Shown here piece by piece: positions 31,790 to 35,102 of a stretch of 40,086 nucleotides of DNA; position 1 is the first letter of the stretch, and every line of letters starts with the position of its first letter. Origin of the DNA: an uncultured Pelagibacteraceae bacterium (GTDB taxonomy: Bacteria; Pseudomonadota; Alphaproteobacteria; Pelagibacterales; Pelagibacteraceae); the NCBI GenBank assembly GCA_902595745.1, contig CACJRE010000007.1:1-40086 (forward strand), given 5' to 3'. A program made the translations under genes and the position numbers. Under the pieces are notes generated by a model. It ran no database searches. It was not told the origin of the DNA and saw only the letters and a list, made by a program, of their open reading frames with translations.

Positions 31790-32533
31790 ATGAATAAATC
31801 CTCTTTTTTTATCGCTGGTCAACATGCTGTTATCGAAGCTCTTAGAAATCCAGATCGAAAGGTTTTAAGGGTGTTTTTAACCGAAGATGCAAAGAAAAAT
31901 ATACATAGAAAAAATCCAAGAAAAAATGTTTTAGAGGACGTTAAAGTTTATTTTAAATCTAAAAAAGAATTAGACAAATACACATCTAAAGAACAATTGA
32001 TGCATAACGGTTATGTTGCAGAAATTGAACATTTAGATCAACCAGATTTAAAAGAATATATAAAAGAAAAAAAAAATTGTACTTTTGTATGTTTAGATGA
32101 AGTAACCGACCCAAGAAATATTGGTTCATTAATTAGAAGTGCAGCATCATTTAAAATAGATGGTTTGATTATAAAAGAAAGACATTTTCCCAAAGATAGT
32201 AAACTCATGTACAAATCAGCTAGTGGATGTATGGAGCATTTAAATATTTTCCAAGTATCAAATATAAATTCTACTCTTAAAAATTTAAGAGAAAGAAATT
32301 TTTGGGTTTATGGTTTTGATGCTAGTGGAGAAAAAGATTTTACAGAGGTTAAATGGGAAGGCAAAAATGTTCTTCTTTTTGGATCTGAGGGATTTGGTAT
32401 GAGAGAACATACTAGTAAATATGCAGATTTTTTTGTTAAAATAGATATCAATAAAGATATAGAAAGTTTAAATATATCAAATAGTGCAGCAATAGTCTTT
32501 CATCACTTAGACTTTGTAAAAAAAAAGAGTTGA
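31790..32533 (+). CDS. rlmB: TrmH/SpoU-family 23S rRNA (guanosine 2'-O) methyltransferase, RlmB-like
   Basis: GQHAVIEALRN, LDEVTDPRNIGSLIRSAASF, LLFGSEGFGMREHTSKYADFFVKIDI, LNISNSAAIVFHHL. Confidence 0.92.
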   Translation: MNKSSFFIAGQHAVIEALRNPDRKVLRVFLTEDAKKNIHRKNPRKNVLEDVKVYFKSKKELDKYTSKEQLMHNGYVAEIEHLDQPDLKEYIKEKKNCTFVCLDEVTDPRNIGSLIRSAASFKIDGLIIKERHFPKDSKLMYKSASGCMEHLNIFQVSNINSTLKNLRERNFWVYGFDASGEKDFTEVKWEGKNVLLFGSEGFGMREHTSKYADFFVKIDINKDIESLNISNSAAIVFHHLDFVKKKS

Positions 32534-32566: not shown

Positions 32567-32642
32567 GCCCTTGTAGCTCAGTTGGTAGAGCAATTGATTT
32601 GTAATCAATAGGTCCGCGGTTCGAATCCGTGCGGGGGCACCA
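32567..32642 (+). tRNA. tRNA-Thr (TGT anticodon)
   Basis: GCCCTTG/CGGGGGC acceptor, anticodon loop TTTGTAA, T-loop GGTTCGAATCC, CCA encoded. Confidence 0.96.
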
Positions 32643-32647
32643 TCACT
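32596..32647 (+). repeat. attL-like 52-bp direct repeat (inside intact tRNA-Thr plus 5 bp downstream)
   Basis: GATTTGTAATCAATAGGTCCGCGGTTCGAATCCGTGCGGGGGCACCATCACT, identical to 34109-34160. Confidence 0.95.
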
Positions 32648-32654
32648 CAATAAA

Positions 32655-32667
32655 ATCAACGTTAATT
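32655..32667 (+). repeat. 13-bp inverted repeat, left copy (ATCAACGTTAATT)
   Basis: Reverse complement of 34067-34079; 7 bp inside the left 52-bp repeat. Confidence 0.7.
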
Positions 32668-32708
32668 TTTTTCAAAAAATAAAATTTCTATCCTGACTGT
32701 GCTCATGC

Positions 32709-32752
32709 TGTGTTTTGATTGTTTATAGAGTGTGTATGGATTGTGTATAAAT
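32709..32752 (+). repeat. Left-flank cluster of 11-bp motif TGTGTWTDDAT
   Basis: TGTGTTTTGAT 32709-32719, TGTGTATGGAT 32731-32741, TGTGTATAAAT 32742-32752 (last two in tandem); a fourth copy TGTGTATAGAT at 34042-34052. Confidence 0.6.
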
Positions 32753-32763
32753 CAATCAGTCTT

Positions 32764-33627
32764 TTATCCACCATTTATTGCTAAAATAGTAAGATCGTCT
32801 TTAATAATACTTTTTTCTTCGTTATGTATATTTTGTAATGCACCAAACGCTGAAACTTCTATAAAAATATTTTCTAATTGTTTTTCAATACTATGATTTT
32901 TATTTTTATTTAATAAATTTATAACACCTTCAGTTTCAATTTCATTTCCTTCAAAATCTCTACTTTCGCTTAAACCATCACTATATATATAAAAAATTTT
33001 TTCTTTTAGTGATATTTTATTTAAAATACTATTTAGGTCAAAATTAATTGGCTGAACTCCAAGTGGTGGAATTTTGTTAGAAGAATGCTCAGTAATATTT
33101 TTATTCTCTGAAATTATACAATTTGAATGACCAGCATTTATAAATTCAAGATTTTTAGATTTTTTATCGTAAGCAGCAAATATTCCTGTTAAAAATTTTG
33201 ATGAACGCAAAGTATATAAGTTATCATTTATTAATGATACAATTTGACTAATGCTCCTGTTTTCTCCAACAAAAATTTCAAACAAAGTAGTGACTCTTGA
33301 CATAATAAGTCCTGCATCAACTCCTTTGCCAGAAACATCAGCAAGAACTATAAAGATTTTATCTCCAAAATTTTTGAAATTGTAAAAGTCTCCAGAAATA
33401 TCTAAGGAAGGTACATTTTTAGCAAAAAGAATATTTTCGTGATTATTAGTCTTTGGAAACATAAGTTTTTGTACTCGTGTTCCTTTTTTGAGTTCTTTTT
33501 CTGCTACGCTTTTTCTATTTAAAAATTTTAGATTTGTTTTTTCAATTCTTTCCCATGCCTCTTTGGGTTTCAGTCCATGTTTTTTTGCTAATGCTATTAA
33601 ATCTTCCCAATTATTTATTTTCATCAT
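32764..33627 (-). CDS. SpoIIE/PP2C-type serine phosphatase domain protein
   Basis: 287 aa; SLDISGDFYNFKNFGDKIFIVLADVSGKGVDAGLIMSRV, FINAGHSN, YIYSDGLSESRD, KDDLTILAI. Confidence 0.88.
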   Translation of the reverse strand: MMKINNWEDLIALAKKHGLKPKEAWERIEKTNLKFLNRKSVAEKELKKGTRVQKLMFPKTNNHENILFAKNVPSLDISGDFYNFKNFGDKIFIVLADVSGKGVDAGLIMSRVTTLFEIFVGENRSISQIVSLINDNLYTLRSSKFLTGIFAAYDKKSKNLEFINAGHSNCIISENKNITEHSSNKIPPLGVQPINFDLNSILNKISLKEKIFYIYSDGLSESRDFEGNEIETEGVINLLNKNKNHSIEKQLENIFIEVSAFGALQNIHNEEKSIIKDDLTILAINGG

Positions 33628-33649
33628 AAATTTTAATTAATTATGAATT

Positions 33650-34012
33650 CTATTTCTTTGATACTATTTGCTCTGAAAGTGGGGCTACGACACCAATGAT
33701 TGTATCAATATCTTGGGTTTCAACTTTTAACTCTTCTAATGTTTTTTTAAGATGTCCGGCAACTCCATTAAAATCTTCTTGGGATATTTTCATGCCTTGA
33801 TGAGCAGCTTTCATATCAAGACCAGTATATTCCTTTGGTCCACCTAAAGCTTGAGAAATGAAATTAGTTTGATGTGAAATTAAAACTTTCATATCTGTAT
33901 TTGAAAAAAACTTTTTTAAATTTTCATCAGCCATAATTTTTTGATAAAAATTAATAACAATTAGGCCAACCGTTTTTTTTCCACCATATTTTTCATAAAG
34001 TGTCTGGGTCAT
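33650..34012 (-). CDS. Truncated hemoglobin (group 1-like)
   Basis: 120 aa; LYEKYGGKKTVGLIVINFYQKIMADENLKKFFSNTDMKVLISHQTNFISQALGGPKEYTGLDMKAAHQGMKISQEDF (proximal-His region AHQGM). Confidence 0.88.
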   Translation of the reverse strand: MTQTLYEKYGGKKTVGLIVINFYQKIMADENLKKFFSNTDMKVLISHQTNFISQALGGPKEYTGLDMKAAHQGMKISQEDFNGVAGHLKKTLEELKVETQDIDTIIGVVAPLSEQIVSKK

Positions 34013-34066
34013 TGTTGTCAGTTATATCACTGTGCCCGTAGTGTGTATAGATTTTTAAATACTTTC

Positions 34067-34079
34067 AATTAACGTTGAT
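34067..34079 (-). repeat. 13-bp inverted repeat, right copy (AATTAACGTTGAT on + strand)
   Basis: Reverse complement of 32655-32667; 29 bp inside the right 52-bp repeat. Confidence 0.7.
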
Positions 34080-34108
34080 AGTATTTATCTTTTTGGATTT
34101 AGACTCTC

Positions 34109-34160
34109 GATTTGTAATCAATAGGTCCGCGGTTCGAATCCGTGCGGGGGCACCATCACT
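34109..34160 (+). repeat. attR-like 52-bp direct repeat (truncated tRNA-Thr copy)
   Basis: Identical to 32596-32647; the 5' half of the tRNA is missing upstream. Confidence 0.95.
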
Positions 34161-34331: not shown

Positions 34332-35102
34332 CTAACTAGTTTCTTTTCTTATTTGTTCAATCTTAATCTTTTTTTGTAAACTTCTGTTTTTGTCATAAAG
34401 AAGATTAAATTTAATTTTATTATTTGTTTTAACAATAATTGATTTTGCATTTCTTACCTCTGAATTATCGGCAACCGCACTTATGGGTCTCTTTGATGGA
34501 TTCAAATTAGTAATAACAATTTTAGTTTTATCATTAACAATTTTTCCCTTCCATCTTCTTGGTCTAAAAGCACTGATTGGTGAAATAGAGAGTTTTTTTG
34601 AATGTAGACTTAAAATAGGTCCGTGCACTGATAAGTTATACGCTGTACTACCAGCTGGTGTTGAAACTAATACACCATCAGAGACTAACTTTTTTATTAT
34701 CTGTCTTGACCCTTGTTTAATTGATAATGAAGCAGCCTGTCTACTTTGTCTTAAAACAGAAACTTCATTTATTGCTAAAGATTTTTTAATTTGATTATTT
34801 TTGTTTTTAACAATCATTTCTAAAGGAGAAATAGAAACCACATTAGACTTTGATAAATTTTTGATAATATTTTTGGAAGAAAATTTATTCATCAAGAAAC
34901 CATAGTTTCCTGAATTAATTCCATAAAATTGCTTTTTTGAATTCTTATTTTTTTTTAGTGTTTGAAGCATAAAACCATCGCCACCAATAACGATGATTAG
35001 GTTTTCTTTTTTAAATTTCTCTTTGTTTATTTTTTTAGTTAAAATTTTTTTAATTTTAGAAGACTTTTCATTCTTATCAGAAATAATCTGAAGTCTTGTC
35101 AT
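34332..35102 (-). CDS. nadK: NAD kinase
   Basis: LIIVIGGDGFMLQTLKKN; GINSGNYGFLMN; SDGVLVSTPAGSTAYNLSVHGPIL. Confidence 0.94.
   Translation of the reverse strand: MTRLQIISDKNEKSSKIKKILTKKINKEKFKKENLIIVIGGDGFMLQTLKKNKNSKKQFYGINSGNYGFLMNKFSSKNIIKNLSKSNVVSISPLEMIVKNKNNQIKKSLAINEVSVLRQSRQAASLSIKQGSRQIIKKLVSDGVLVSTPAGSTAYNLSVHGPILSLHSKKLSISPISAFRPRRWKGKIVNDKTKIVITNLNPSKRPISAVADNSEVRNAKSIIVKTNNKIKFNLLYDKNRSLQKKIKIEQIRKETS

Follow-up and report, generated by a model that had tools for sequence, protein, structure and literature searches.

An integrase-free gene cassette system at a tRNA-Thr gene of SAR11 bacteria, probably mobilised in trans by phage-satellite integrases

Background

Bacteria of the SAR11 group are among the most abundant in the ocean and have streamlined genomes with few recognised mobile elements. 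Among mobile elements described elsewhere, CIMEs, considered derivatives of ICEs or IMEs, are att-flanked units without a recombinase that accrete in tandem and are presumed to be mobilised in trans, while tycheposons and marine phage satellites (VEIMEs, P4-like) are tRNA-targeting tyrosine recombinase elements of streamlined marine bacteria. The arm-type sites bound by integrases of the lambda family look like paired tandem arm repeats. Tycheposons are reported in a study on Methylophilaceae to span 4-200 kb and to carry a recombinase (PMC10872708); that study and one on Alteromonas describe additive flexible genomic islands, in which a tRNA gene is the target for gene cassettes and tRNA 3' ends are repeated (PMC4119200; PMC10872708). 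In SAR11 itself, hypervariable region HVR4 of HTCC1062 was described as 'flanked by tRNA genes' (Wilhelm et al. 2007, PMC2217521), and in it a bacterial-like globin (SAR11_1217) and an adjoining sigB-regulator phosphatase (1218) have pilins on either side; integron attC sites were sought at SAR11 HVRs and none were found, and no mechanism was proposed (PMC2217521).

The locus analysed here lies in a 40,086-nt SAR11 contig (hereafter the window, meaning the whole stretch of DNA studied) and is very probably the same hotspot as HVR4, HTCC1062 being known here from published tables; relative to that description (PMC2217521), the att cores, arms and cassette units are new from this analysis. Like CIMEs, the SAR11 cassettes are att-flanked, integrase-free and found in tandem; unlike CIMEs they are mostly 0.5-4 kb long, hold their genes at a fixed position, have an arm that is promoter-like, and have their related integrases on phage-satellite-like elements. 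No conjugation genes were seen at the cassettes or elements in an unsystematic inspection. Their size (mostly 0.5-4 kb) and the lack of a recombinase set the cassettes apart from tycheposons, the window cassette being about 1.5 kb long, and integrase-less mini-cassettes with paired 11-bp arms and a fixed promoter and start are not reported in the available portions of the two accounts of additive flexible islands (PMC4119200, PMC10872708). As with integron cassettes, the units are modular, lie in one orientation, stack in tandem at a single docking site and have a huge diversity of cargo; in contrast to integrons, the site has neither intI nor attC and consists of a tRNA anticodon stem-loop with a double-strand core and arms, each cassette seems to have its own putative promoter, and the integrases found here are phage-type. 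We conclude that this is a real, widespread integrase-free cassette system, integron-like in outcome and phage attP-like in mechanism, whose mobilisation we infer.

Results and discussion

The cassette in the window

In the window, positions 32596-32647 recur at 34109-34160 with 52/52 identity, the next base differing at both sides, and with one mismatch permitted the repeat extends to 56 bp at 98% identity; an exact 52-bp repeat within 40 kb is far beyond chance. ARAGORN and Rfam recognise a single intact tRNA-Thr(TGT), and the second copy is without the tRNA 5' half, as an earlier note made from the sequence had described. That note also drew attention to the non-tRNA bases within the repeat. 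While the 52-bp identity is exact, the additional TCACT past the CCA is nothing special: TCAC starts 36 of 74 cassette left ends and also follows the CCA at an empty host site (L203). The functional core is the 47 bp ending at CCA.

The earlier note's count of two cargo genes without an integrase likewise stands: the copies enclose just the genes of a SpoIIE/PP2C-type phosphatase and of a group 1 truncated globin, which both run antisense to the tRNA (Table 1). The globin matches M. tuberculosis HbN (1.5e-25), its best PDB relatives are HbN-type globins, and its ATG lies 96 bp from the right core; the phosphatase has a PDB match to Rv1364c (5e-6). The pair could form a gas-responsive regulator. 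No integrase and no replication or packaging gene is present among the cassette's genes; replication and/or packaging genes do occur in two integrase-bearing elements discussed below (L098 and L199). Compared with tRNA-bounded genomic islands, the locus has the intact tRNA, the displaced 3' fragment and the empty relatives and has no integrase of its own, and the features of a phage satellite (an integrase with replication and/or packaging genes) are absent from the window cassette. A 425-aa tyrosine integrase is encoded elsewhere in the window's own genome (G000:C33:5450-6073, L115).

Table 1. Features of the tRNA-Thr locus, in window coordinates
Feature	Position	Strand	Remarks
Conserved flank rlmB (23S rRNA 2'-O-methyltransferase)	31790..32533	+	
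Intact tRNA-Thr (TGT); attB docking site, restored at attL	32567..32642	+	
Left 47-bp core copy, anticodon stem-loop to CCA	32596..32642	+	identity with right copy until 32647
Left inner end TCACTCAATAAAATCAACGTTAATTTTTTT...	32643..32682	+	common to cassettes with other cargo
13-mer ATCAACGTTAATT in left inner end	32655-32667		inverted copy at right end, 34067-34079
Left arm, five 11-bp units CTGTGCTCATG/CTGTGTTTTGA/TTGTTTATAGA/GTGTGTATGGA/TTGTGTATAAA	32697..32751	+	putative integrase arm-type sites
Cargo gene 2, SpoIIE/PP2C-type (RsbU-like) phosphatase, 287 aa	32764..33627	-	PF07228, 1e-29
Cargo gene 1, group 1 truncated globin, 120 aa	33650..34012	-	PF01152, 2e-24
Extended -10-like element TGATATAAC, directly upstream of globin ATG; putative portable promoter, near-leaderless	34021..34029	-	motif enrichment in cassettes
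Right arm, two 11-bp units CTGTGCCCGTA/GTGTGTATAGA	34030..34051	+	
Right inner end CTTTCAATTAACGTTGATAGTATTTATC...AGACTCTC, with inverted 13-mer (34067-34079)	34062..34108	+	
Right 47-bp core copy, attR, truncated tRNA-Thr	34109..34155	+	exact repeat until 34160
Conserved flank nadK (NAD kinase)	34332..35102	-	directly abuts tRNA at empty sites

Empty sites, single cassettes and tandem arrays

Searches with a 161-bp probe gave a match in 151 of 151 same-genus genomes, and in many of these the tRNA-Thr region is followed, 0.7-10 kb downstream, by additional copies of the 3' part. From SAR11 genomes 100 loci were fetched, a non-random sample whose second part was picked mostly for multiple copies. 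For the 76 in which a single contig spans tRNA-Thr and nadK, the number of extra cores is zero in 26, one in 39, two in nine and three in two. The first fetched set, unselected for copy number, comprises 47 loci spanning to nadK, of which 22 are without an extra core (seven of these empty), 17 have one and eight have two, giving at least one extra core in 25 of 47. Five core copies in total occur at L063, whose contig stops before nadK. At the eight empty loci the tRNA lies 4-156 bp from nadK (4-14 bp in L057, L058, L067, L082, L085 and L203; 156 bp in L045 and L053), and the closest relatives of the window by rlmB (91-96%) all have cassettes of other lengths at the site. Empty sites, lone cassettes and tandem arrays all occur at this hotspot, the tRNA-Thr gene between rlmB and nadK. 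These states, together with a core running from the anticodon stem-loop to the CCA, support the earlier reading of the repeat as an att footprint; the contrary picture set out at that time, in which all relatives carry the same two genes without empty or alternative sites, is not what the relatives display.

Core copies next to nadK have on average 1.49 mismatches versus 0.33 in middle copies, and in some tail regions the left end alone remains. Perfect core identity, which the earlier note took to argue for recent formation or ongoing exchange, gives no date by itself, because the tRNA bases are constrained and a recombinase needs matching cores, although the nadK-proximal copies are indeed the more mutated ones. 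Outside the genus, matches in other SAR11 genera were only weak, mostly one per genome, and fit their own tRNA-Thr and not the cassette right end.

A shared layout with 11-bp arm repeats

Defining cassettes as the stretches between cores with at most three mismatches, we obtained 74 from 60 loci (537-9828 bp, median 1475), whose interiors fall into 66 cargo groups. The order is 47-bp core, left arm, genes and right arm, and in 71 of the 74 cassettes the longest frame runs antisense to the tRNA. Usually 92-96 bp separate the right core from the first ATG (90-100 bp in 46 of 71, exactly 94 in 23), and about 110 bp separate the left core from the last stop. The ends belong to a few sequence families common to unrelated cargos. 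Relatives of the window right end occur in more than 30 SAR11 genomes, and at all 30 loci that were read such homologues are joined to the tRNA-Thr core, 29 of them with at most five mismatches. A third end family (left AAAATCTCATTT..., right ...AATGAAAGGAAATTT...AAGCTTTTT) bounds the larger integrase-less elements L198, L230, L237, L070 and L095, which measure 3.4-9.8 kb and in some cases carry restriction systems. Cassettes with mixed end families also exist (e.g. L048.0 and L214.0) and some right repeats are weak, so homologous exchange between neighbours may also act.

Past the inner ends, both arms consist of 11-bp tandem repeats. With a match of 8/11 or better as the criterion, period-11 repeats are found in 96% of left arms, 68% of right arms and 3% of interior controls, and no comparable excess appears at periods 9, 10, 12 or 13. 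The repeat word varies by cassette (GTTGCAGGATT, GTGTGACGCTA, GTGTTACCATA, GTGCGGACATA, GTAGTGAATTT and others), and the left and right arms of the same cassette match each other at a score of 26.5 versus 17.3 (sd 0.58; 0/10,000 permutations), a difference somewhat inflated by the shared ancestry of some cassettes. By analogy, the repeats resemble integrase arm-type sites and may serve as such. An incompatibility by which neighbouring cassettes avoid the same arm repeats was also considered, and gave no signal (neighbours 26.1, random 25.5).

Of the 59 first genes, 43 have an extended -10 motif (TGnTA) 6-12 bp upstream of the ATG, versus 4.2% of 424 control genes, and Shine-Dalgarno-like motifs are rare (4/59 first genes), suggesting that each cassette brings a portable promoter that would give leaderless or near-leaderless transcripts. 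This putative promoter overlaps the right arm, and integrase binding might also repress it.

Integrase-bearing elements with the same core

Two elements combine the same core with an integrase. In L098, an 8.9-kb IMG/VR viral contig, the exact 47-bp core adjoins the gene of a 328-aa tyrosine integrase (phrog_1, 3.7e-53), and a small terminase and a primase/helicase-like gene are also present; its arms contain GCGGAC repeats most like those of cassettes L205.0, L077.0 and L063.0, and the integrase gene has its ATG 102 bp from the core, at the place of the cargo ATG in cassettes. L199 (genome G039) is a 7.7-kb primase-integrase element between two cores at the same tRNA-Thr, with an integrase different from that of L098 and with repeats (GTAGTCAATTT) that most resemble the ones in L198 and L237, large elements without an integrase. 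Both look like phage satellites, resembling the marine VEIMEs and P4-like elements, and not like ICEs; the earlier note's suggestion of pelagiphages as a plausible source of recombinase is less well supported. Relatives of the L098 and L199 integrases occur in 9/201 and 3/300 same-genus genomes, respectively, and such rarity beside common cassettes is expected if the integrases arrive transiently. An L098-type integrase profile, which also misses the divergent L199 integrase (found by PHROGs), had no match among the 479 frames of the region, and no integrase exactly cognate to the window cassette arms (GTGTGTATAGA type) was found among the integrase elements collected.

Other candidate sources were examined. 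Nearly every genome has one Xer-like gene (307-326 aa); a host Xer recombinase is not favoured as the integrase, since it would leave the element-specific arm repeats unexplained. For cultured phages with this attP, we found only matches of 80-95% identity, most of those listed being tRNA-Thr genes annotated in other phages; phage records contain related integrases of less than 60% identity, and the top matches infect other hosts. The viral contig L097, which has an intact tRNA-Thr and a cluster of tRNA genes, is not an attP.

Transfer between divergent hosts and alternative explanations

Several cassettes are far more similar than their hosts. The window cassette shares 94.3% nucleotide identity with one in G140, whose rlmB is 77.6% identical, and the pairs L218/L220 and L043/L050 show 99.6% versus 80.1% and 98.6% versus 80.4% for cassette and rlmB, respectively. 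Among 399 same-genus genomes searched at the DNA level, the window's genome and G140 alone gave the globin together with the right end at full length. Such identities (94-99.6% in hosts with rlmB at 78-80%) count against the alternative, already raised in the earlier note, that the cassettes are decayed islands, i.e. immobile remnants of larger elements that lost their integrase. The presence of integrase-bearing L199 at the same site, the frequent mutation of the last core copies and the tails with a left end alone are in keeping with decay; however, independent decay would not preserve an ATG about 94 bp from the core, paired matching arms and complete frames in dozens of unrelated cargos, and we consider it quite improbable.

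Spread mainly by homologous recombination or natural transformation through the tRNA core and flanks, with site-specific recombination at the origin only, is an unlikely account, though SAR11 recombines often, DNA uptake genes are mentioned in its literature (PMC7542561), mixed end families occur, and identical cores and ends offer short homologies. Against it, the transferred cassettes sit within divergent flanks, 47 bp is short for homologous exchange, and a protein that binds the paired arm repeats is suggested by their conservation. That the structure is an assembly artefact or tandem-duplication noise around the repeat is hardly credible: the window genome is a fragmented 61-contig assembly, but the same structure recurs in the complete single-contig genomes L200 and L201 and at 60 loci of different genomes.

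A proposed mechanism of mobilisation in trans

We therefore prefer, with a probability of roughly 0.8, the reading that 32596-34155 is one integrase-free cassette mobilised in trans by a phage-satellite tyrosine integrase at the tRNA-Thr anticodon stem-loop, in support of the earlier proposal of a non-autonomous element, although the mobilisation itself is deduced from sequence. The excised circle would carry a single attP, composed of the 47-bp core with an 11-bp integrase-binding repeat arm on each side, and its junction would run from the right inner end (...AGACTCTC) through the core to the left inner end (TCACTCAATAAAATCAACG...), without the tRNA 5' half; the two-gene operon would be transcribed from a promoter within one arm. 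Recombination of the cassette with the anticodon stem-loop would be carried out by a tyrosine integrase acting in trans, whose most likely source is a phage satellite that shares the core and has cognate repeats in its arms. As the cassette supplies the 3' tRNA half, the tRNA would survive and could accept another cassette, and repeated insertion would produce tandem arrays with the oldest copies adjoining nadK.

Two classes of junction bear on the crossover. Cassette right ends share up to seven more tRNA bases upstream of the core, and at L080 (genome G076) a reversed element lies between rlmB and tRNA-Thr, where the 5' half of the native tRNA-Thr, as far as the anticodon loop, is joined to foreign DNA via GATTTGTAATCAA; about 4.8 kb further on comes an intact tRNA-Thr whose upstream region is foreign. 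The anticodon stem-loop is common to both classes and probably contains the crossover.

More speculatively, and with less than even confidence, these cassettes may constitute an integron-like system built on phage attachment logic, in which the 11-bp arm repeats would act as an address code for loading and unloading by satellite integrases, each cassette would bring its own promoter, and satellites or their helper phages would carry genes for defence, pilins and signalling from one species to another, the host keeping a gene library and passing satellites supplying the recombinases. Cassette docking with probable phage-satellite integrases would explain the ongoing change of the hypervariable region described in 2007 (PMC2217521), and it offers for HVR4 a concrete, testable mechanism with defined sites, a predicted promoter and candidate recombinases. 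The diversity of arm repeats further makes co-evolution of integrases and attachment arms directly testable.

Cargo

The locus shows an entry and exit point of restriction systems, candidate phage defences and diverse pilin-like genes in SAR11 genomes. The cargo includes type IV pilin-like proteins whose C-termini vary (50 in one cluster), secreted proteins, trypsin-like proteases and candidate or known phage-defence proteins, namely PDC-S11, DpnI-like methyl-directed restriction and homologues of PD-T4-1 and TmtA; among the larger elements, L095 encodes a type IIG restriction enzyme and L230 an apparent type I restriction set, read from sequence. Up to nine successive pilin-like genes, sharing a GFTLIELLVV N-terminus and with divergent C-termini, lie in and beside cassettes at L062, L063, L052, L037, L056 and L088, suggesting pilin diversification via the tRNA-Thr locus. 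A 104-aa protein (DUF3764/DUF1330-like) is nearly identical across cassettes of different genomes (L069.C0, the L088 tail and L095.C1), a sign of recent spread of one cargo gene.
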